From a virus: a stretch of DNA of 21,740 bases. The notes under the pieces were generated by a model. It saw only the letters and a list, made by a program, of their open reading frames with translations, was not told the DNA's origin and searched no databases. Made by a program: the position numbers and the translations under genes. Each line of letters starts with the position of its first letter. Position 1 is the first letter of the stretch. Shown here in pieces: positions 89 to 21,740 of this stretch. The stretch spans positions 1 to 21,740 of IMG/VR virus record IMGVR_UViG_3300042301_001125. One strand, given 5' to 3'.

Positions 89-1573
89 TTGCAAATAGAA
101 AACCTACAAATCAAAGACCTTGTATCAGACCCAAACAATGTGCGAGTCCATTCTGCGCAGAACCTTGATGCAATCAAGCAAAGCTTGAAGAGATTTGCCC
201 AGCAGAAGCCGATTGTGGTTGATGTCAACAATGTTGTAGTTGCTGGCAACGGCACACTACAGGCAGCCACTAGCTTGGGCTGGAAAGAAATCAAGGCAGT
301 GCGACTGCCGGCAAACTTTACCGAAGCCGAAAAGAAAGCCTTTGCCATCGCGGATAACAGGACCGCAGAGCTGGCTCAGTGGGACACCGCAGAGCTTGAC
401 AACCAGATTCTTGAGCTAACAGAAATCGGATTTGACCCGCAGGACTTTGGTTTCACCAGCAAGGACCTAGAGAACATCATCAGAATCGCAGAGGCAAAGA
501 CCACCGGCGTTACCGATGTGTTCCAAGAGTGGCAAGGTATGCCTGAGTTTGTTCAGTCGGACAAGCGTAGTGAGTTTAGGACAGTGATTCATTTCCCTAC
601 TGAGAAAGATGCAGATGAGTTTTTTGCCCTAATTGACAGACCTAAAAAGAATGCAATGTGGTGGCCGGAGAGTGATGGACACATAGGTTCAGCTATAGGT
701 GAAGCTTACATAGCAACCCCCGCCAAGACTCAGGTGGGGGAGACAAAAAAAAATCAGCTAGTTGATTTTTACCATTTACAACTAGCTAATCGCAACAACC
801 TGCCCTTGCCTGCATATCCAATCTATATTCCAACCAAAGGCAGAGCAGATATAGCTACAACCCCAAAGATACTTGCAGAATCTAATGTGCCATTTATTCT
901 TGCTGTTGAAAAAGAAGATGTTGCTAATTACAGGACCAAGTTTCCTACAGCAGAAATACTTGAACTGCCAGAGAGTAATCAAGGCATTGTTTATTCACGC
1001 AATTTTTGCAAGGCAGATGCAAAGAAAAAGGGTGCTGCTTATCATTGGCAGATTGATGATGACATCCGCAAGATTGCTTTTTCTGTAAATGCTAAAGAAA
1101 CTAATATGCCTTTTGCGCAGGGGCTGGCTATTGCAGAAGCTTTTACTAAACACTATGACAACATTGGAGCTATGTGTCTAAGACACTTGGCTTTTTCTCG
1201 CACAGAAAAGCACGATGTTGGTTTCAACAAGATTATTTATGGCATACAGCTGTTATCTTCAGAACCTGACATATGGTTTAGAAACAATACAATTGAAGAT
1301 ATTGACAATACGATGCAGCTACTGACTGCAGGATACTGCACTCTTGTTTTGAATCGGCTTGTGTTTAGCACACCAAGTACAGGAGTAGAAAAAGGTGGCA
1401 ACACAGAGAACTCTCATCAGCTTGAATCAAGAGAGGCAAGAGCAAGAAATACTCAAAACAATTGGCCTAATGCATTTAAGTTACGCAAAACCAATGTAGG
1501 AATCCGAATTGCACCAAGCAGAGTTTGGTCAACCTTTCCGCAAATACCGGTAAAGAAAAATGTATCAGCCTAA
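89..1573 (+). CDS. ParB/Srx-like domain fused to TET-associated glycosyltransferase (TAGT)
   Basis: 494 residues. Residues about 5-100 read as a ParB/sulfiredoxin-fold domain: the pattern around DPNNVRVHS (14-22), then VVAGNGTLQAA (50-60, a GNGR-like motif), then IADNRTAELAQWD. Residues about 150-195 (MPEF, a VIHF strand, MWWPE) form the segment that often follows ParB-like domains in phage proteins. From residue 244 (PIYIPTKGR) the protein is a GT-A-type glycosyltransferase of the TAGT kind, with DDD at 323-325 as probable metal/nucleotide-sugar site and a second acidic motif EDID at 403-406. In phages TAGT enzymes accompany base hypermodification, so the likely job is adding sugar to modified bases in phage DNA; the ParB part may bind DNA or act as nuclease/NTPase. 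No TET oxygenase or other base-modifying enzyme is in this window. The start is TTG at 89: GAGAGG lies 9 bases upstream, an in-frame stop sits at 50-52, and there is no other start between. It overlaps the next gene by 14 bases. The GT half is clearly more AT-rich than the ParB half. Confidence 0.75.
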   Translation: MQIENLQIKDLVSDPNNVRVHSAQNLDAIKQSLKRFAQQKPIVVDVNNVVVAGNGTLQAATSLGWKEIKAVRLPANFTEAEKKAFAIADNRTAELAQWDTAELDNQILELTEIGFDPQDFGFTSKDLENIIRIAEAKTTGVTDVFQEWQGMPEFVQSDKRSEFRTVIHFPTEKDADEFFALIDRPKKNAMWWPESDGHIGSAIGEAYIATPAKTQVGETKKNQLVDFYHLQLANRNNLPLPAYPIYIPTKGRADIATTPKILAESNVPFILAVEKEDVANYRTKFPTAEILELPESNQGIVYSRNFCKADAKKKGAAYHWQIDDDIRKIAFSVNAKETNMPFAQGLAIAEAFTKHYDNIGAMCLRHLAFSRTEKHDVGFNKIIYGIQLLSSEPDIWFRNNTIEDIDNTMQLLTAGYCTLVLNRLVFSTPSTGVEKGGNTENSHQLESREARARNTQNNWPNAFKLRKTNVGIRIAPSRVWSTFPQIPVKKNVSA

Positions 1574-2441
1574 GTTTCCCATTTACATTCCTAGCAAGTC
1601 ACGCTCAGAGAGTAGCCTGACCGCACATTTCCTAGAAAGCATCAATGTTCCATTTCGCATCGTGGTAGAGGAACAGCAGTATGCGGATTACAACAGATTC
1701 TTTCCCGCAGAAAAGCTTTTAGTTCTTGACCCTAAATATCAAGAAGAGTATGACACCTATGATGAGTTTGGCGGGGAGTTCAGCAGAGGCTCAGGACCGG
1801 CACGAAACTTCATCTGGGACCATTCTGTAGCAGAGGGTCACGACTTTCATTGGATTATGGATGACAACATCCAGCTATTTGCCATTATGCAAAACAACCA
1901 GCGTATTCCGGTTGGTGACGCAATGATTTTTCAGGCGATGGAAGAGTTTGTATTGCGGTATGAGAATGTCGGAATGGCAGGACCTAACTATTGGATGTTT
2001 GCGCCAAGCCGGGCAAAGTTTGCTCCATTTACTTTGAACACAAGGATTTACAGCTGCATCCTTATTCGCAACGATGTGCCTATGCGCTGGGGTGGCAGAT
2101 ACAATGAGGACACCGACCTGAGCTTGAGGATGCTCAAGAGTGGCTGGGCAACAGTCCTGTTTAAATCTTTCTTGCAATACAAGATAACTACACAGCAAAT
2201 GGGCGGTGGAAATACAGAAGCTTTCTATTCAGACAAAGGCACTTTGCCAAAGTCCGAGATGCTGCGAGAAAGACACCCGGATGTCACTCAAGTAGTCTGG
2301 CGATTCAAACGCTGGCATCACCATGTTGATTACACGCCTTTCAAGGACTTGGGTTTGATTCGCAAGCCGGGCTTAGAGTTACCGACAGAGAGCCAGTATC
2401 AGCTCAAGAAAGTAAAAAGAGACAGGCGCAAAGATGGCTAA
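1560..2441 (+). CDS. TET-associated glycosyltransferase-like protein (TAGT), second copy
   Basis: 293 residues, a clear paralogue of the C-terminal half of the preceding gene. Both begin with a PIYIPSK/TK strand (residues 7-13 here), then an ES-x-NVPF motif (26-32), a VVEE/AVEK strand, and an FPAEKL/FPTAEI stretch. The probable active-site motif is HWIMDDN at 97-103 (HWQIDDD in the paralogue), and a second acidic motif EDTD at 183-186 precedes a short helix, as in GT-A enzymes. The C-terminal 50 residues are basic (KVKRDRRKDG at the end), possibly for DNA contact. The gene overlaps its upstream neighbour by 14 bases and the terminase small subunit by 8, so all are probably one operon. Expected role: transfer of a sugar to a modified base or to an already attached sugar. 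Substrate and acceptor cannot be read from the sequence. Two adjacent copies could add successive sugars. Confidence 0.7.
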   Translation: MYQPKFPIYIPSKSRSESSLTAHFLESINVPFRIVVEEQQYADYNRFFPAEKLLVLDPKYQEEYDTYDEFGGEFSRGSGPARNFIWDHSVAEGHDFHWIMDDNIQLFAIMQNNQRIPVGDAMIFQAMEEFVLRYENVGMAGPNYWMFAPSRAKFAPFTLNTRIYSCILIRNDVPMRWGGRYNEDTDLSLRMLKSGWATVLFKSFLQYKITTQQMGGGNTEAFYSDKGTLPKSEMLRERHPDVTQVVWRFKRWHHHVDYTPFKDLGLIRKPGLELPTESQYQLKKVKRDRRKDG

Positions 2442-2904
2442 AGTTGGCAGACCACCAAAACCTAATGAGGAAAAGCGCAGAATTGGCAACCCCGGCAAGC
2501 GACCACTTCCATCTCAAGAGCTAGTCGTTGCGCTACCGGCAGCTGAGTCTGTTCCTGAACCAACCAGACCGCTAGGAACATACGGCAAGCAATTCTGGGA
2601 CCGAGTTTGGCAATACGGCATTCATTGGATTAGCCCAAGCACTGACTTTGAAGTAATGATGATGACGGCTGAGTTGATTGATGAGCGTTGGAATTTGAGA
2701 GCTAAGGTGATGAAAGCTTTGCTTGCTGAGCACATTACATCCGAAGCCTCAAGGGACCGCAGAGCCTTGCGAGAGTTAGACCGGTTAATTGACAGTCACC
2801 TGTCACAGCTAGGGCTAACCCCGGCAGACCGCACCCGCTTGGGCTATGCAGAAGTCAAGAGAATGTCTAAGATTGCAGAACTAAGAAAGATGTCAAATGA
2901 GTAG
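2434..2904 (+). CDS. terS: Terminase small subunit (P27-like family)
   Basis: 156 residues, the DNA-recognition subunit of the packaging motor. The N-terminus has the basic GRPPKPNEEKRR...GNPGKRPLP motif (residues 5-26) seen in many actinophage P27-type small terminases. It is followed by a Pro-rich linker and a mostly helical body (about 48-156) with YGKQFWDRVW and a conserved-looking LGLTPADRTRLGYAEVK segment (131-147) suited to oligomerisation. The assignment rests on these motifs plus position: the stop overlaps the large terminase start by 8 bases, and the start overlaps the preceding TAGT gene by 8. The ATG at 2434 has only a weak AGG upstream, so translation is probably coupled to the upstream gene. 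Confidence 0.85.
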   Translation: MAKVGRPPKPNEEKRRIGNPGKRPLPSQELVVALPAAESVPEPTRPLGTYGKQFWDRVWQYGIHWISPSTDFEVMMMTAELIDERWNLRAKVMKALLAEHITSEASRDRRALRELDRLIDSHLSQLGLTPADRTRLGYAEVKRMSKIAELRKMSNE

Positions 2905-4417
2905 TTGGCCACCACGCTGGCTTACACCTGTAGCCAAAGAATCACTTGAAAGCCGGAGAGCCGCACAGGTAATTGCATTCATTGAGGCTTATGGCTTACA
3001 GACCAAAGACACTATCGCTGGTAAGTCAGGCTCACAGCTACAGCTAAGAGATTGGCAGATAGAGCTAATCAAACATTTGTTTGCTGAGGATGCCAACGGC
3101 AGGCTGCTTGCCAGAACAGCCCTAGTGGGAATGCCAAGAAAGAATGGCAAAAGTGCGCTGGGTTCATCGCTTGCTCTATGGTCCTTGTTCTTAGGTGCTA
3201 ATGGTGGTGAAGTCTATAGCTGTGCTGCCGACAAGGAACAGGCACGAATCGTGTTTGGTGATGCTAAGCGAATGATTGAAGCACATACAGAGCTATCCGA
3301 ATTGGTGAGGATTTACCGCGATGCTATTGAGGTTGTTGATAGCGGTTCAATTTACAGAGTTCTATCCTCAGAGGCTTATACAAAAGAGGGTTTGTCACCG
3401 ACCTTTGTTGTTTTTGATGAGTTACACGCAACGCCTAATCCGGATTTATACAATGTTATGCAGCTTGGTATGGGTGCGCGTGAAGAGCCGATGCTTTTAA
3501 GCATTACTACCGCCGGAGTAAAGACAGACAACAGCGGTAAGGATTCAACGGCATACGCTCAATACCAATATGGGCAAAAGGTTGCGCGTGGCGAACAGCC
3601 TGACCCGTCATTCTTTATGGCATGGTGGGAAGCCCTGCCGGAAGCAGACCACCGAAATCCGGAAACTTGGGAAATGGCTAACCCCGGTTATGGTGACCTT
3701 AACAGCATCGAAGATTTTGAGGCAATGGCTAGGCGTATTGAAGAACCGGAGTTCAGAACTAAGCGTTGCAACCAATGGGTGAGCAGTGCTAATGCTTGGC
3801 TGCCTTCAGGACTTTGGGAAACACTTGAAACCAAGCGAGAGCTTGACCCAGATGCCGAATACATACTTGGCTTTGACGGCTCATTCAATAATGACTGCAC
3901 AGTTATTGTCGGCTGTCAGATACCGCGTGATGAGGATGAAAAGCCATATCTGTTTTTAGTCAAGGCTTGGGAAAAGCAACCGCAGGACACCGATGATTGG
4001 CGAGTTGACACCCTAGATGTCGAAAGCACGATTATGAATTTCATCCAGAACCACCCGAAAACCTTAGAGGTTGCTTGCGACCCATTTAGATGGCAGAGAA
4101 CAATGGCAGTCTTACAAGACACCGGTATCAACATTGTTGAGTGGCCTACTACAAGTGTTCGGCGTATGGTGCCAGCGTGTCAGAAGTTTTACACGCAGGT
4201 AACAGAGAACCGCTTAGAACACGATGGTGACCCTTTTATGACAAGGCACTTATCTAACGCGGCAGTCAAGACAGATAACTACGGACCGCGAATTGTTAAG
4301 GAACACCGAAGCAGCTCCAAGAAGATTGACGCAGCGGTTGCTGCTATCATTGCTTTGGACAGAGCATTAGTAATTAGAGAAACCGAAGCACCGCGCATAC
4401 CGCAGTTTTTCATATAA
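2897..4417 (+). CDS. terL: Terminase large subunit (ATPase and nuclease)
   Basis: 506 residues, the packaging ATPase and headful/cos nuclease that docks on the portal. A Walker A-type loop GMPRKNGKS is at 78-86, and a Walker B VVFDE with D174-E175 is followed by LHATPNPDLY. The nuclease domain begins around residue 322 with an ILGFDGSFNNDCT strand (D327 the first predicted metal ligand). Further acidic positions such as EVACDPFRW (near 391) and a late KIDAAVAAIIALDRAL segment (near 475-490) match the expected order. Length is normal for the family. It overlaps the small terminase by 8 bases. The C-terminus ends just before an AAGGA ribosome site for the 47-residue ORF that follows. Confidence 0.95.
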   Translation: MSSWPPRWLTPVAKESLESRRAAQVIAFIEAYGLQTKDTIAGKSGSQLQLRDWQIELIKHLFAEDANGRLLARTALVGMPRKNGKSALGSSLALWSLFLGANGGEVYSCAADKEQARIVFGDAKRMIEAHTELSELVRIYRDAIEVVDSGSIYRVLSSEAYTKEGLSPTFVVFDELHATPNPDLYNVMQLGMGAREEPMLLSITTAGVKTDNSGKDSTAYAQYQYGQKVARGEQPDPSFFMAWWEALPEADHRNPETWEMANPGYGDLNSIEDFEAMARRIEEPEFRTKRCNQWVSSANAWLPSGLWETLETKRELDPDAEYILGFDGSFNNDCTVIVGCQIPRDEDEKPYLFLVKAWEKQPQDTDDWRVDTLDVESTIMNFIQNHPKTLEVACDPFRWQRTMAVLQDTGINIVEWPTTSVRRMVPACQKFYTQVTENRLEHDGDPFMTRHLSNAAVKTDNYGPRIVKEHRSSSKKIDAAVAAIIALDRALVIRETEAPRIPQFFI

Positions 4418-7843: not shown

Positions 7844-8998
7844 ATGTCTTTTGTCAAGGCACAAAAGGAACTTATTGCCAACCTAGTGGAGCAAATCCGC
7901 GAGGTAACTGACTACGCAGATTCTGAGAAGCGTGGTCTATTGGGCGAGGAAGTTTCAAAAATCAACCGTATTGAGGATGAAATCCGCTCTGCTGAGGCTG
8001 CTGTCCAGACCGCAGAACGCGCAGAAGCTCGCCTCAACGCTGCAGCCGATGCTGCTCGCGACTACAAGCCATCTGTAGAGTCACGCTCTGATGCAGACAT
8101 CCTACGCTCAATTGCGCGTGGTGAAGTTCGCGGTCACGAGTTTGAGAAGCGTCTGCTTGTACCTAGCGACAACACTGTTCCAAAGTCTTTCTATGATGAG
8201 GTATTCTCTGTTGCTCGCCTAGTCGGTCCGATGCTGGATGTATCTCAGGTTATCTCGACCAGCACTGGCGAGTCCCTGACCATCCCAACTCTAACCGCAT
8301 ACAGCACTGCAACCATCAAGGGTGCTGGAACTGCTATCGCTGAGTCTGACCCTGTATTCAGCTCAATCACTTTGGGTGCTTACAAGTACAGCTTCCTTGT
8401 TCCTGTAGCTAATGAGCTACTGAACGATGCTGGCTTTGACATCTCTAGCTTGATTGCTGAGCAGGCAGGTAACGCAATTGGTTACGCTGTCAACGCTGCA
8501 CTAACTACTGGTACTGGAACTGTTCAGCCAACCGGTGTTGTAACCGCAGCTGGTTCGGGTGTAACCGGTGGTACTGGCGTTGCTGGTGCGTTCACCGCAG
8601 ACAACCTAATTGACCTTGCATACTCCCTAGATGGAGCAGCTCGCAGACTACCGGGCGTTGGCTACATGGCTAACACTCAGTCTGTCGGTGCTATGCGCAA
8701 GCTCAAGGATGGAGCTGGCAACTACCTGTACCAGGTCGGTGTAGGTCAGCCTGACTCATTCGCTGGATTCCCAATCTTTGAGAACCCTGCAATGGCAGCT
8801 ACCGCGACCTCTGCTAAGTCGGTTGTTTTCGGACACCTTCCAAGCTACAAGGTCCGTATGGCCGGTGGACTACAGATTGCACAGTCTTCTGACTACGCAT
8901 TCAACACCGATGTCACCACCTTCCGCGTGCTAATGCGCGTGGATGGAAACCTGACCCACGCCGGTCACATCAAGTACTTTGCCGGAGCTGCATCTTAG
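7844..8998 (+). CDS. Major capsid protein, HK97 fold
   Basis: 384 residues. Residues about 1-100 are a charged, Ala/Glu-rich coiled coil (repeated EIR, AEAR and similar), matching the HK97 delta (scaffold) domain removed by the prohead protease. The mature part probably begins near 100-110, before LVPSDNTVPKSFYDEVF, a motif typical of HK97 capsids. It continues with VSQVISTSTGESLTIPTL (E-loop region), a KYSFLVPVANELLNDAGFD spine helix region, IGYAVNAALTTGTGTVQPTGV, and the C-terminal PSYKVRMAGGLQIAQSSDYAF. AGGA lies 7 bases before ATG. Its own promoter and flanking terminators on both sides fit a need for very high expression. The codon use looks cleaner (many GCT/GCA, CGC, ACC codons) than in its neighbours, consistent with this. 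Confidence 0.95.
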   Translation: MSFVKAQKELIANLVEQIREVTDYADSEKRGLLGEEVSKINRIEDEIRSAEAAVQTAERAEARLNAAADAARDYKPSVESRSDADILRSIARGEVRGHEFEKRLLVPSDNTVPKSFYDEVFSVARLVGPMLDVSQVISTSTGESLTIPTLTAYSTATIKGAGTAIAESDPVFSSITLGAYKYSFLVPVANELLNDAGFDISSLIAEQAGNAIGYAVNAALTTGTGTVQPTGVVTAAGSGVTGGTGVAGAFTADNLIDLAYSLDGAARRLPGVGYMANTQSVGAMRKLKDGAGNYLYQVGVGQPDSFAGFPIFENPAMAATATSAKSVVFGHLPSYKVRMAGGLQIAQSSDYAFNTDVTTFRVLMRVDGNLTHAGHIKYFAGAAS

Positions 8999-9015
8999 TT
9001 CAGGCATACTAAGCG

Positions 9016-9055
9016 AAACACCCCCGGTTGTAGGTTGCCGGGGGTGTTTCTTTTT
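9016..9055 (+). terminator. Strong intrinsic terminator after the capsid gene
   Basis: A perfect 12-base stem: AAACACCCCCGG (9016-9027) pairs with CCGGGGGTGTTT (9038-9049) around a 10-base loop, followed by CTTTTT. This is the strongest hairpin in the window and isolates capsid transcription from the sugar cassette. Confidence 0.93.
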
Positions 9056-9058
9056 GAC

Positions 9059-9074
9059 TAAGCTAACTGCTATG
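9059..9074 (+). promoter_or_regulatory. Possible leaderless promoter of the GT4 gene
   Basis: TAAGCT (9059-9064) fits TANNNT and is 7 bases before ATG 9072, with no Shine-Dalgarno upstream. It directly follows the terminator, so a new start of transcription is needed here. No convincing -35 box. Confidence 0.45.
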
Positions 9075-10262
9075 AAACCTACAAAAAAACTAAATGCCGC
9101 ATTCTCTATCTGGTCGAATTCATATGGCACATCTACCGGCTATGGAGTCCAAGTCACTCACCTAGTTGACAGGCTCAAGCGAGATGGCGCAGAGGTCGCT
9201 GTTCTCTCTAACTATGGGCTTGAGGGAAGAATGGATGAAATCCAAACCCCATATGGCAAGGTAGCTCATTACCCGCGAGGGTTTGACACTTACTCTAATG
9301 ATGTCGGTCCGGTTGACCATAGCATCTTTACCGGAAAGCACCCGGACAAGAAATCTGCCCTGATTACTCTCTATGATGTCTGGGTTCTAACAAACAAGCT
9401 GTATGACGACATTGAGCGCATCGCCAGCTGGGTACCCCTAGACCACATTACAATGCCGCCAAAGGTCAAGCAGTGGCTTGTGAAGCCTAATGTGACACCT
9501 ATCGCTATGGCACTTCACGGAGTCCGGCAAATGGAAGAACAGGGAATTGAGTGCGAGTATGTGCCTCACGCGGTTGACACTAAGGTTTACAAGCCAACTC
9601 ACCAAATCCCTACAGGCGAATCTGTAGCTAATTACTTCAATAGCCAAGATAAGTTTGTTGTTGGAATGGTCGCGGCTAACAAAGCATCAGGGCTAGTTCA
9701 CCGAAAAGCTTTCAGCGAGAACCTTTTGGCATACTCTATCTTCAAGAAGAAACACCCGGATGCTCTGCTGTACTTACACACAGAACCGCTAGGGCTTGCT
9801 GCCGGCTGGAACTTGTTACAACTAATCGAAGCTGTCGGGCTAGGCAAAGATGATGTCATCTTTCCGCATCCGCTTGAGTATCGCTTTGGATTAGAGCCGG
9901 CTCATATGGCAGCGGTTTATACCGGGATGGATGTGCTACTTGCGCCAAGCTTAGGCGAGGGCTTTGGTGTGCCAACTATTGAGGCTCAGGCGTGTGGCAC
10001 AAGGGTTATCGTGTCTAACTGGGCAGCTAGTCCGGACCTAGTAGGTGACGGCTGGACAGTCGAGGGGCAGCCTCAGTTCGATGCCGGTCAAAATGCTTGG
10101 TGGAAAATACCAAGTGTGCCATCTATTGTTGAGGCTTTGGAACAAGCTTATGCTGCAGGAAAAGGCAGAAGCACAAAAGCTGTCGAATTTGCTAAGCAGT
10201 TTGATGTCGAAAAGGTCTGGAAAGATAATTGGCTGCCTGTGCTTGATAGGCTGACCAAATGA
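9072..10262 (+). CDS. GT4-family glycosyltransferase
   Basis: 396 residues from ATG 9072 (MKPTKKLNAAFSIWSNSYG). GT-B fold retaining glycosyltransferase. The N-terminal half has a Gly-rich STGYGVQVTHLVDRL acceptor-side motif near residue 20 and ITLYDVW; the C-terminal half carries FVVGMVAANKASGLVHRKAF and the E-x7-E motif GEGFGVPTIEAQACG with E296 and E304, which binds the nucleotide-sugar. An in-frame extension upstream to 8979 would run through the terminator hairpin and is rejected. The stop overlaps the GT2 start as ATGA. With the next two genes it forms a sugar cassette placed between capsid and connector genes. Likely acceptors are a virion protein or a host surface/cell-wall sugar; DNA is also possible. 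The sequence does not say which. Confidence 0.88.
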   Translation: MKPTKKLNAAFSIWSNSYGTSTGYGVQVTHLVDRLKRDGAEVAVLSNYGLEGRMDEIQTPYGKVAHYPRGFDTYSNDVGPVDHSIFTGKHPDKKSALITLYDVWVLTNKLYDDIERIASWVPLDHITMPPKVKQWLVKPNVTPIAMALHGVRQMEEQGIECEYVPHAVDTKVYKPTHQIPTGESVANYFNSQDKFVVGMVAANKASGLVHRKAFSENLLAYSIFKKKHPDALLYLHTEPLGLAAGWNLLQLIEAVGLGKDDVIFPHPLEYRFGLEPAHMAAVYTGMDVLLAPSLGEGFGVPTIEAQACGTRVIVSNWAASPDLVGDGWTVEGQPQFDAGQNAWWKIPSVPSIVEALEQAYAAGKGRSTKAVEFAKQFDVEKVWKDNWLPVLDRLTK

Positions 10263-10903
10263 AACTAATCGTGCCGGTTCTAAACCGCTATGACCTACTG
10301 CAACGGATGATTGATTCAATTGACTTTCCGATTGAGCATCTACTAATTATTGACAATGGCGGTCAGCTAGATGCCCTAAAGGGTAATGAGTTTATTGATG
10401 CTGTAACAGTTCTTGATATGCCAACCAATCTAGGCGTGGCTGCATCTTGGAACTTAGGCATCAAGGCATTCGGTATGGATGAGGTCTGGCACTTTAGTTC
10501 TGCTGACACTGTTTATGGACCGGGTGCGCTTGAAAAACTTAGTGAGGCTAAGTCAGATGAAATTACTTTGACTAAAGCCTTTCCGCATTGGCAGACCTTT
10601 GCTATTGGCACTCACATAATCCAGCAGATTGGATTGTTTGATGAAAGCTTTTACCCAATCTATTTTGAGGACACCGATTTTATGCGTAGAGCGGTCAATG
10701 CTCTGCTACCGATTCAATACCTTGACATAAATGTAAGTCACGACAATAGCTCAACTATCAATAGTGACTCAAGACTTAGGGACAGAAACAGCGTTACATT
10801 CCAAAGCAACGCTATCTATTTTGAAACTAAGGCTGCTTGCGATGACTATTCTGCTGGCAGCTGGAATCCGCAAAGGCGCAGGGAGAACAATTGGGCAAGG
10901 TAG
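10259..10903 (+). CDS. GT2-family (GT-A fold) glycosyltransferase
   Basis: 214 residues, short for the family but complete in its catalytic core. Features: an N-terminal LIVPVLNRYDLLQRMIDSI strand-helix, a LLIIDNGG motif, MPTNLGVAASWNLGI (typical NxGvaaAwNxGi of GT2 enzymes), the SSADTVYGPGALEKL metal-site region and the late YFEDTDFMRRA motif. The C-terminus is basic (NPQRRRENNW). It should use a nucleotide-activated sugar and act in the cytoplasm. The start ATG overlaps the GT4 stop (ATGA), so it is translationally coupled, and its 3' end overlaps the epimerase gene by 13 bases. Acceptor unknown; it differs from the two TAGT proteins at the left edge in motif layout. Confidence 0.82.
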   Translation: MKLIVPVLNRYDLLQRMIDSIDFPIEHLLIIDNGGQLDALKGNEFIDAVTVLDMPTNLGVAASWNLGIKAFGMDEVWHFSSADTVYGPGALEKLSEAKSDEITLTKAFPHWQTFAIGTHIIQQIGLFDESFYPIYFEDTDFMRRAVNALLPIQYLDINVSHDNSSTINSDSRLRDRNSVTFQSNAIYFETKAACDDYSAGSWNPQRRRENNWAR

Positions 10904-11898
10904 TGATTACAGGTGTAGCTGGACTTTTAGGTTCACACCTAGCAGACAGATTCATTGATGAGGGCTGGGATGTAATTGGCATTGACAACCTTATCGGTGG
11001 CGATGCTAGTTATGTACACCCAAAGGTACATCTGTATTTAGATGACCTAACTGATGATGACATTATTCATAAGACTTATTGGCACGAAGCAGACCTTGTG
11101 ATTCACGCCGCAGCCCTAGCTCACGAAGGCTTAAGTGTATTTAGCCCAAGCCTAATCGTGAAAAACAATGTTCAGGCTACTGTAAATGCCGTTACTGCAG
11201 CTGCTAAGAATCAAGTCAAGCGGTTTGTGTATCTATCTTCAATGGCGAGATATGGAAATCTGGGCGTTACTTTTACAGAGGATATGGAGCCAAAGCCACA
11301 AGACCCATACGGCATCGCCAAGCTATCCTCAGAGAAGCTAGTGGCTAACATCTGCGAGGTAAATAATATTGAGTGGACTGTTATTGTTCCGCACAACATT
11401 ATCGGAGCACGACAGAAGTATGATGACCCTTTTCGAAATGTAGCAAGTATCTTTACCAACCGGATGTTGTCTGGCAAGCAACCTATCATTTATGGCGATG
11501 GGACTCAGCAGAGGTCATTCTCATTTGTTCAAGATGTAGTTGAACCTTTGTACCAAGCTTGCTTTATGCCGGAGCTAAACGGCGAGGTTGTAAATGTCGG
11601 ACCGGACAAGGAAAGCACCACCATCCACGAATTAGCTGTAATGATTGCGGGGCTTCTGGACTTTGACCTTGACCCGATTTTTATGGCGGGCAGACCGCAG
11701 GAAGTCAAGAGAGCACTATGCAGTAGCGACAAGGCTCGCAAGCTTTTGGGCTATGAAGCAAAAACCAAAGTAGAGGATGGAATCAAAGAGCTTGTTACTT
11801 GGATTCAAGAACAGGGACCTAAGCCATTCAACTACTACCTGCCACTTGAAATCAACAACGACAAGACCCCACGCAGCTGGTCTGACCGATTGATGTAA
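10891..11898 (+). CDS. NAD-dependent nucleotide-sugar epimerase/dehydratase
   Basis: 335 residues from TTG 10891, chosen because GGGAG at 10881-10885 sits 5 bases upstream and the protein then starts at the usual place just before its Rossmann motif. That motif is G8-VA-G11-LL-G14 in VVITGVAGLLGSH. D32 in IDNLIGGD fits NAD(P) ribose binding, VIHAAALAH is the fourth strand, and the catalytic set is S116/S117 with Y140 and K144 in DPYGIAK. It is an extended short-chain dehydrogenase that modifies an activated sugar (4-epimerase, 4,6-dehydratase or related), feeding the two glycosyltransferases ahead of it. Exact sugar not readable. The next gene starts 10 bases downstream at its own probable promoter. 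Confidence 0.88.
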   Translation: MGKVVITGVAGLLGSHLADRFIDEGWDVIGIDNLIGGDASYVHPKVHLYLDDLTDDDIIHKTYWHEADLVIHAAALAHEGLSVFSPSLIVKNNVQATVNAVTAAAKNQVKRFVYLSSMARYGNLGVTFTEDMEPKPQDPYGIAKLSSEKLVANICEVNNIEWTVIVPHNIIGARQKYDDPFRNVASIFTNRMLSGKQPIIYGDGTQQRSFSFVQDVVEPLYQACFMPELNGEVVNVGPDKESTTIHELAVMIAGLLDFDLDPIFMAGRPQEVKRALCSSDKARKLLGYEAKTKVEDGIKELVTWIQEQGPKPFNYYLPLEINNDKTPRSWSDRLM

Positions 11899-21102: not shown

Positions 21103-21455
21103 AAGAACATCTCAAGCAGATTCTGGTTCGCTCACTAGGTCTGGTCCTAGCAACATTTTTTGGCGGCACTGCTATCGGTAGCGTGTTGGGCGATTGGGTA
21201 ATGGGTGCTCTTATCGGTGTCGGCTCTGCCTTTGCCGTAGTGCTAACAACAATCGGAGTCGCGGTTGCTTGGAAAGGCACTCTGGAACTAACGGACATTC
21301 AGAACGCATACCGGGCTGCTGTAGCTAAGAGTGACAGCGAGGCTGTCGAAGATGCGCTTAAGGTAACTCAGGATGGCAAGTTTGACTTTGATGATGTTGA
21401 CTTTGATGGCGATGATGACTTGTACGACCCAGAAGTCAAAGATAAGGTCAAATAG
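21099..21455 (+). CDS. Holin with two membrane segments
   Basis: 118 residues; AAAGG lies 7 bases before ATG, and the start overlaps the endolysin stop. Membrane segments at about 9-30 (LVRSLGLVLATFFGGTAIG) and 34-57 (VMGALIGVGSAFAVVLTTIGV) are separated by a short polar turn. The C-terminal half is cytoplasmic and very acidic, with the D-rich end FDFDDVDFDGDDDLYDPEV. Two TMs, a charged tail and position next to the endolysin fit a class II type holin of actinophages. It converges with the WhiB gene, overlapping it by 8 bases. Confidence 0.8.
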   Translation: MKEHLKQILVRSLGLVLATFFGGTAIGSVLGDWVMGALIGVGSAFAVVLTTIGVAVAWKGTLELTDIQNAYRAAVAKSDSEAVEDALKVTQDGKFDFDDVDFDGDDDLYDPEVKDKVK

Positions 21456-21740
21456 CTGCGGCTTTTTTTAGCTGTTGTCTTTCTTCCGGCATTAGACCAC
21501 CCCAGATACCAAACTGCTCATTGGCTTTGAGCGCATAATCGCGACACGAAAACAAAAGCGGACAGGTCTGGCAAAGATATTTAGCATATTTAGCTACTTC
21601 ATCACGCTTTGCTAGGTCCGGTAAATTCTCTAAGTAGAAAATTTCACCTAATCCCCAACAGGCTGGACCGCTGCCGTTGCCTTGCTTAAGAATAAATGAA
21701 CCACGCATTAGCTTTTCATAGGCATCTGCAATTTCGCTCA
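21448..21740 (-). CDS. WhiB-family iron-sulfur transcription regulator (5' end probably outside window)
   Basis: At least 86 residues from the in-frame ATG whose complement is at 21706-21708, but the frame stays open to the window edge, adding SEIADAYEKL upstream, so the true start may lie outside. Four cysteines for a [4Fe-4S] cluster are present: C17, then C46-x2-C49-x5-C55 (counting from that ATG). The WhiB signature GIWGGL follows at 67-72 and a basic/Ala tail (EERQQLKKAAAI) ends the protein. WhiB proteins are found only in Actinobacteria and their phages, so this is the best host marker in the window. It is the only gene on the - strand and ends 8 bases inside the convergent holin. It probably belongs to an early or regulatory module lying beyond the right edge and may retune host or phage promoters. 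Confidence 0.9.
   Translation of the reverse strand, partial: SEIADAYEKLMRGSFILKQGNGSGPACWGLGEIFYLENLPDLAKRDEVAKYAKYLCQTCPLLFSCRDYALKANEQFGIWGGLMPEERQQLKKAAAI

Follow-up and report, generated by a model that had tools for sequence, protein, structure and literature searches.

The window, by which we mean the whole stretch of viral DNA analyzed here (an entire linear IMG/VR record of 21,740 bases), opens with two genes, P1 and P2, that run directly into the terminase genes (Table 1). Both encode a TAGT glycosyltransferase domain, and P1 begins with a ParB-like domain. The locus raises the question of whether this pair glycosylates DNA and, if so, which base would accept the sugar. The record is probably a fragment, and because it starts at the module, the early region of the phage is absent from it. 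A WhiB-like regulator at the right end, which points to an actinobacterial host, and siphovirus-like head genes suggest a phage of actinobacteria.

Table 1. Features of the window
Feature	Position	Strand	Evidence
P1, 494 aa, TTG start	89–1573	+	open frame
ParB/Srx-like domain of P1, residues 1–137	89–499	+	phrog_620 ParB-like 4.3e-39
WWYP domain of P1, residues about 138–212	500–724	+	conserved in TAGT-A partner proteins
TAGT-B domain of P1, residues 243–494	815–1570	+	PF20691 6.8e-32; phrog_842 6.9e-29
P2, 293 aa: TAGT-A, GT-A glycosyltransferase	1560–2441	+	open frame; PF20691 3.9e-45; AF2 model
Terminase small subunit (TerS), overlapping P2	2434–2904	+	PF25673 1e-6; phrog_83 3e-14
Terminase large subunit (TerL)	2897–4417	+	PF03354 1e-20; PF20441 5e-16; phrog_9 5e-115
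GT4	8979–10262	+	Pfam
GT2	10259–10903	+	Pfam
Nucleotide-sugar epimerase	10891–11898	+	Pfam
WhiB-like regulator	21448–21738	−	PF02467 1.1e-13

Two TAGT proteins in a terminase operon

P1 overlaps P2 by 14 bases, P2 overlaps TerS by 8 and TerS overlaps TerL by 8, which makes P1, P2 and both terminase genes a single coupled operon. The initial annotation had described two tandem paralogous TAGTs directly before the terminase, one of them fused to a ParB/Srx-type domain, and each part of that description is borne out, including all of the motifs it quoted. P1 consists of the ParB-like part, a domain of about 70 residues that we call WWYP and that the first reading overlooked, and a TAGT domain (PF20691), in that order. 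PHROG families (4e-39), a Foldseek match of the N-terminus to Noc/ParB folds (2e-7) and a predicted model with pLDDT of ~95 over residues 1–90 establish that the ParB N-terminal fold is present despite a PF02195 score below cut-off (0.02). In the P1 sequence, GNGT stands in place of the canonical GERR CTP-binding motif, so a CTP-clamp function should not be assumed.

The TAGT domain of P1, which we call TAGT-B, matches PF20691 over residues 243–437 with 111.5 bits (6.8e-32), and P2, which defines the type that we call TAGT-A, does so over residues 6–216 with 154.7 bits (3.9e-45). With a curated cut-off of 27.5 bits and 28% identity between P1 and P2 over 217 aa (E 6e-24), chance is excluded. 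The motifs are PIYIPTK, ESNVPF, HWQIDDD, EDID and GGN in P1 and PIYIPSK, ESINVPF, HWIMDDN, NEDTD and GGGN in P2. HWxxDD, ED-x-D and GG are kept in both proteins, and the acidic DD and ED motifs are also common to the T6 TAGT and to the TAGTs found beside TET genes in relatives. Both domains are under purifying selection, and TAGT-B evolves faster than TAGT-A: in comparison with the locus L008, TAGT-B has a dN of 0.225 and TAGT-A one of 0.035; dS is similar for the two and close to saturation.

Structure prediction, proposed at the outset as a check, was informative for one of the two proteins. The AF2 model of P2 (pLDDT 93.7, pTM 0.91) has a GT-A fold, and Foldseek ranks GT-A enzymes highest among its matches, for example LARGE1, COLGALT1 and GnT-I; a sequence search of the PDB found no chain related to P2. 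The TAGT model of P1 is too poor to judge a fold, with pLDDT of 30–60 over residues 323–443 and poor modeling everywhere outside the ParB domain. A GT-A fold for TAGT-B would therefore be predicted from sequence homology, and we make no structural claim for either WWYP or TAGT-B.

The only characterized TAGT that we met is ggt of phage T6, which glucosylates DNA by adding glucose to glucosyl-hmC (PMC13216743, PMC13390438). This β-glucosyl-HMC-α-glucosyltransferase of T6 and T2 belongs to the same Pfam family, has the DDD/ED/GG motifs and is a DNA-linked glycosyltransferase of GT-A fold; a PHROG profile named for it matches P2 at 6.9e-45. It is far from TAGT-A both by sequence and in the tree and, unlike P1 and P2, has no ParB or WWYP partner. 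Its acceptor is α-glucosyl-hmC made via gp42 and α-GT, neither of which is recognized in the fragment covered by the window.

We consider it fairly probable that the ParB-WWYP-TAGT-B/TAGT-A pair is a phage DNA-glycosylation module. This reading rests on the domains, the catalytic motifs, the GT-A fold of P2, the operon overlap, the partnership of WWYP with TAGT-A, the interchangeability of the slot before the terminase and the absence of TET in relatives. In the mechanism that we infer, which covers DNA as the substrate, the identity of the sugar, the order of the transferases and protection, the enzymes would be docked on phage DNA by WWYP, either alone or together with the ParB-like domain. 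TAGT-A would act as a GT-A transferase that uses a divalent metal and a nucleotide-sugar donor to put a sugar on the DNA, and TAGT-B would probably add a further sugar or a second mark, by analogy with the T6 TAGT, which extends a DNA sugar. Expression together with the terminase would mean that the DNA is marked before packaging and should be shielded from host nucleases. Two points count against DNA glycosylation here: GT-A enzymes mostly act on proteins, lipids or glycans and P2 is without a solved relative, and the T6 TAGT requires a pre-existing sugar.

The WWYP domain and the TAGT-A clade

The WWYP domain of P1 reads DVFQEWQGMPEF...TVIHF...DEFFALI...MWWPESDGHIG, and the consensus is EWxGMPEF...VHF..E.D...F..L....K....W.P, with D, W, MP, F, W and P invariant. 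The region has no Pfam or NCBIfam match, its profile found no convincing relative in the PDB, and a tblastn search of named phages with the isolated domain returned nothing. A role for WWYP as the enzyme that makes the acceptor was rejected because the invariant residues form no evident active site, and a binding role is therefore preferred. We also rejected the presence of WWYP in ParB-methyltransferases such as TPDSL_ph1, whose protein is a ParB-N4MTase.

TAGT-A forms a single clade in the tree (60 tips, support 1.0), and TAGT-B is not clearly monophyletic. A ParB-WWYP protein adjoins TAGT-A in 52 of the 59 distinct TAGT-A groups, and most of the remaining seven lie at a contig end or have a WWYP-TAGT-A chain. 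In bacterial genomes WWYP always lies beside TAGT-A (11/11), and in all ten module-bearing genomes it is single-copy and at the module; only three of 395 Enterobacterales genomes have it, each time beside TAGT-A. Apart from terminase and head genes, no other genes are conserved beside the TAGT-A module across the 59 groups. The module is abundant, with at least 591 IMG/VR matches and 29 loci in bacterial genome assemblies, and a search of plasmids for TAGT-A found none. Searched against E. coli, the module of the Pantoea prophage finds a counterpart for its ParB part only, namely YnaK of prophages; at the DNA level, this part (L176:9300–9700) and E. coli prophage ynaK are ~71% identical.

WWYP takes three forms: ParB-WWYP beside TAGT-A, WWYP alone beside TAGT-A and, in Aeh1-like phages, a WWYP-TAGT-A chain. 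The layout of the window, with ParB-WWYP-B followed by A, recurs in L004 and L232. Other loci have ParB-WWYP followed by an A-B chain (L003, L007, L015, L005, L205 and others), ParB-WWYP, B and A as three genes (L044/L256, L231 and others) or B-ParB-WWYP followed by A (L039). The ParB-TAGT fusion, highlighted initially, is not central to the system: ParB-WWYP usually forms a protein of its own, TAGT-B is an optional, mobile third part, and the P1 fusion is one among several shuffled arrangements. ParB is optional as well, since some phages without it keep a small WWYP domain. Swapped fusion partners are the usual sign of parts working together, and we read the exchanges among TAGT-B, ParB and WWYP in this way. 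Some TAGT-B homologues have no TAGT-A in view, several of them adjoining a nucleotide-sugar epimerase (L218, L220, L228).

The WWYP-TAGT-A chains of Aeh1ORF087c type occur in large myoviruses (Aeromonas Aeh1, 65 and phiAS5, Tenacibaculum PTm1, Pectobacterium POP12); their TAGT-A is ~45–53% identical to P2, and no ParB or TAGT-B was seen with them. Aeh1ORF087c itself appears in a 2021 paper among presumed DNA modifiers, with its base given as unknown (PMC8056088). Petrov et al. list a dCMP hydroxymethylase for other T4 relatives, not for Aeh1 or 65 (PMC2993671). T4 relatives without gene 42 and the glucosyltransferases, a group described without specific reference to Aeh1, probably have no major dCMP modification, and some are cut by type II enzymes (PMC2993671). 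Likely unmodified dCMP in such phages counts against the DNA-glycosylation reading.

Such restriction-sensitive DNA would fit site-specific marking, in which ParB-WWYP binds pac or cos and the TAGTs modify that site only, controlling terminase cutting or protecting the packaging start. In many loci, unrelated terminases directly follow the module, and in the window it overlaps TerS. However, TAGT-A is not beside the terminase in Aeh1, phage 65, 1.124.O or 1.076.O, in the last of which it sits between portal and head-morphogenesis genes. The slot before the terminase is moreover shared with methyltransferases, TET and Mom, families that modify bases throughout the genome, and we regard marking confined to a packaging site as very unlikely.

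Contents of the ParB-TerS slot

Using TerL as an anchor, we classified 81 distinct TerL-homologous loci with a visible ParB; because they were gathered through TerL, TAGT and TET searches, the proportions that follow are biased. The slot is empty, with ParB ending at TerS, in 15 of the 81. An N4/N6 methyltransferase, present as a ParB fusion, occupies it in 19, a C5 methyltransferase in two (PF00145 1.7e-51 in L123), a Mom-like enzyme in two (phrog_1384 5.5e-57) and TAGT-A in 16, the window included. In the remaining 27 a TET/JBP oxygenase stands in the slot, by itself or together with an epimerase or, in the usual case, with a divergent TAGT or a P-loop kinase (for example, Tet_JBP 5.1e-9 in L089 and Ploopntkinase3 4.6e-25 in L295). 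Every filled slot (66/66) thus contains a DNA-modifying enzyme or a TAGT, and this pattern favors DNA as the target of the pair without relying on how the family is named. On this evidence the 'probable DNA-glycosylation pair' of the initial annotation stands as the best reading. The 15 empty slots imply that the module is dispensable, and this counts against that reading.

ParB-DNA methyltransferase and ParB-Mom genes resemble the window in that ParB precedes, or is fused to, a DNA-modifying enzyme directly before TerS, whereas the catalytic unit of the window is a glycosyltransferase pair, accompanied by WWYP. Phage ParB>TET/JBP>TAGT operons occupy the same ParB-TerS slot, with TerL up to 77% identical to that of the window. 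They have ParB without WWYP, TET and TAGTs of divergent clades, whereas the window has WWYP with TAGT-A and TAGT-B and no TET. The nearest terminase relatives of the window (73–77%), L008 excepted, have ParB>TET>TAGT at every locus with a visible slot, and the lineage of the window therefore appears to have swapped one cassette for the other.

Several slot proteins deserve separate mention. The Mom-like proteins (phrog_1384) lie at L115:536–1276, L124:734–1417 and L134:565–1251. A P-loop kinase stands between TET and TerS at L295:6533–7099 (Ploopntkinase3) and at L291:6917–7507, which has the same opening motif; a kinase step in base hypermodification is possible. At L089:769–1656, phrog_6059 ('queuine tRNA-ribosyltransferase') and Pfam Tet_JBP give conflicting labels, and the HxD...H pattern of a 2OG-Fe oxygenase makes the PHROG label look wrong.

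The TAGTs might instead glycosylate a virion protein, the terminase or another non-DNA target. The closest folds of P2 are protein or glycan glycosyltransferases, genes for GT4, GT2 and an epimerase stand among the capsid genes of this phage, and the position of TAGT-A in 1.076.O among head genes would be in keeping with such a target. Yet the slot is equivalent to that of DNA methyltransferases, Mom and TET, the partner is a ParB and the T6 homologue acts on DNA. In addition, homologues of GT4 and GT2 are found in relatives whatever fills the ParB-TerS slot, methyltransferases included, which suggests a separate, perhaps virion, glycosylation cassette. We consider a non-DNA target quite unlikely.

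For the same reason, the presence of these genes where the slot holds methyltransferases, we dropped GT4, GT2 and the epimerase as a firm part of the DNA pathway. The sugar genes (8979–11898) lie between major capsid and connector genes and are possibly a donor-sugar or virion-glycan cassette with no specific tie to the TAGT pair. In L091 and L095, the TET-TAGT operon includes a homologue of the epimerase with 60% identity.

Acceptor base and donor sugar

The initial annotation had linked TAGTs to TET/JBP oxygenases. This applies to the divergent TAGTs in the slot of sister phages (ParB>TET>TAGT) and fails for the TAGT-A clade, which is not TET-linked. Its suspicion that TET plays no part in the present locus, and the search for TET and thymidylate-synthase-like enzymes that it proposed, were pursued among relatives. 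TET/JBP (PF12851) was found in none of 40 TAGT-A records by a search that recovered all five TET-slot controls, and in none of six further named phages in a search run without a positive control; the total of 0/46 strengthens the suspicion. Pfam scans of the 21.7-kb window, PF12851 among them, found no 2OG-Fe oxygenase. Thymidylate synthase (TS; PF00303) was absent from all 38 IMG/VR relatives of TAGT-A type and present only in six large myovirus-size genomes, where an ordinary TS is expected. ThyX was found in 0/24, and a C5 methyltransferase in 5/40 TAGT-A records, not consistently. In fact, the PF20691 profile does not require an association with TET, and the T6 TAGT also works without it.

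Two TAGT-A records, G005 (33 kb; L019/L341) and G030 (48 kb; L332–L334), each carry an exact 127-nt repeat located at the ends or close to them. IMG/VR classes both as linear, yet the repeats make it probable that they are complete circular assemblies. Neither contains TET, TS or ThyX, and the early-region genes scanned in G005 are ordinary (RusA, YqaJ, HTH) or have no assignment. The absence of TET and ThyX, with TS confined to large myoviruses, suggests that the acceptor is not a known TET or hydroxymethylase product. That no enzyme making a hydroxylated base is recognizable also counts against DNA glycosylation itself.

These searches bear on the ordinary pathway, in which TET, a hydroxymethylase or another enzyme encoded in the unsequenced part of the phage makes 5hmC or 5hmU and the TAGTs sugar-coat it. 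The fragmentary record, starting at the module, would leave room for such a gene, sister phages have TET in the very same slot, and the TS-family genes of Aeh1, PTm1, POP12, Kuja and phage 65 could include a hydroxymethylase. We nevertheless judge this pathway unlikely, given the zero counts for TET in the 46 TAGT-A records and for TS in the 38 from IMG/VR, their absence from the apparently complete G005 and G030, and conserved neighbors that are terminase and head genes only.

Returning to the DNA-glycosylation module, it seems self-sufficient; its acceptor may be an unmodified base or a handle that an unrecognized enzyme provides. The fuller proposal, which we put forward tentatively and with less than even confidence, is that a WWYP adaptor and TAGT-A, often with ParB and TAGT-B, form a self-contained system, widespread in phages of many bacterial phyla. 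Such a system would glycosylate DNA without a hydroxymethyl base made by TET or thymidylate synthase, using a canonical base or the handle just mentioned.

We found no literature description of the WWYP partner, its exclusive pairing with TAGT-A, the TET-less TAGT-A clade or the cassette exchange at the ParB-terminase slot; Iyer et al. 2013, reportedly the main comparative paper on TAGT, could cover parts of these. TAGTs, phage DNA glycosylation and ParB-methyltransferase genes are already known, as are many TAGT phages without α-/β-GT: a 2026 study counted solitary TAGT homologues without these enzymes in 288 of 753 phage genomes and regarded them as potentially new transferases (PMC13216743). 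Should the module glycosylate DNA, the modification would be common and its acceptor chemistry would lie beyond the TET or hydroxymethylase pathways. Prophages in cultured Pantoea, Erwinia, Chryseobacterium, Rhodovulum and Xenophilus make the question accessible to mass spectrometry, and new DNA-modifying enzymes can readily be sought in the ParB-terminase slot.

Sugar-nucleotide genes recur near such modules, which counts in favor of the DNA-glycosylation reading, and they differ, with UDP-galactopyranose mutase in L005, UDP-glucose dehydrogenase in L039, GT9 in L333 and epimerases elsewhere, which suggests that the sugar varies. At L005:6714–9276, an epimerase, the UDP-galactopyranose mutase and a cytidylyltransferase directly precede ParB and TAGT-A-B, which hints at a donor of the galactofuranose type. 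In enterobacterial phages (L333:195–2249, L072, L076), an MptE-like protein, a GT9-like transferase and a methyltransferase are encoded directly upstream of ParB-WWYP.
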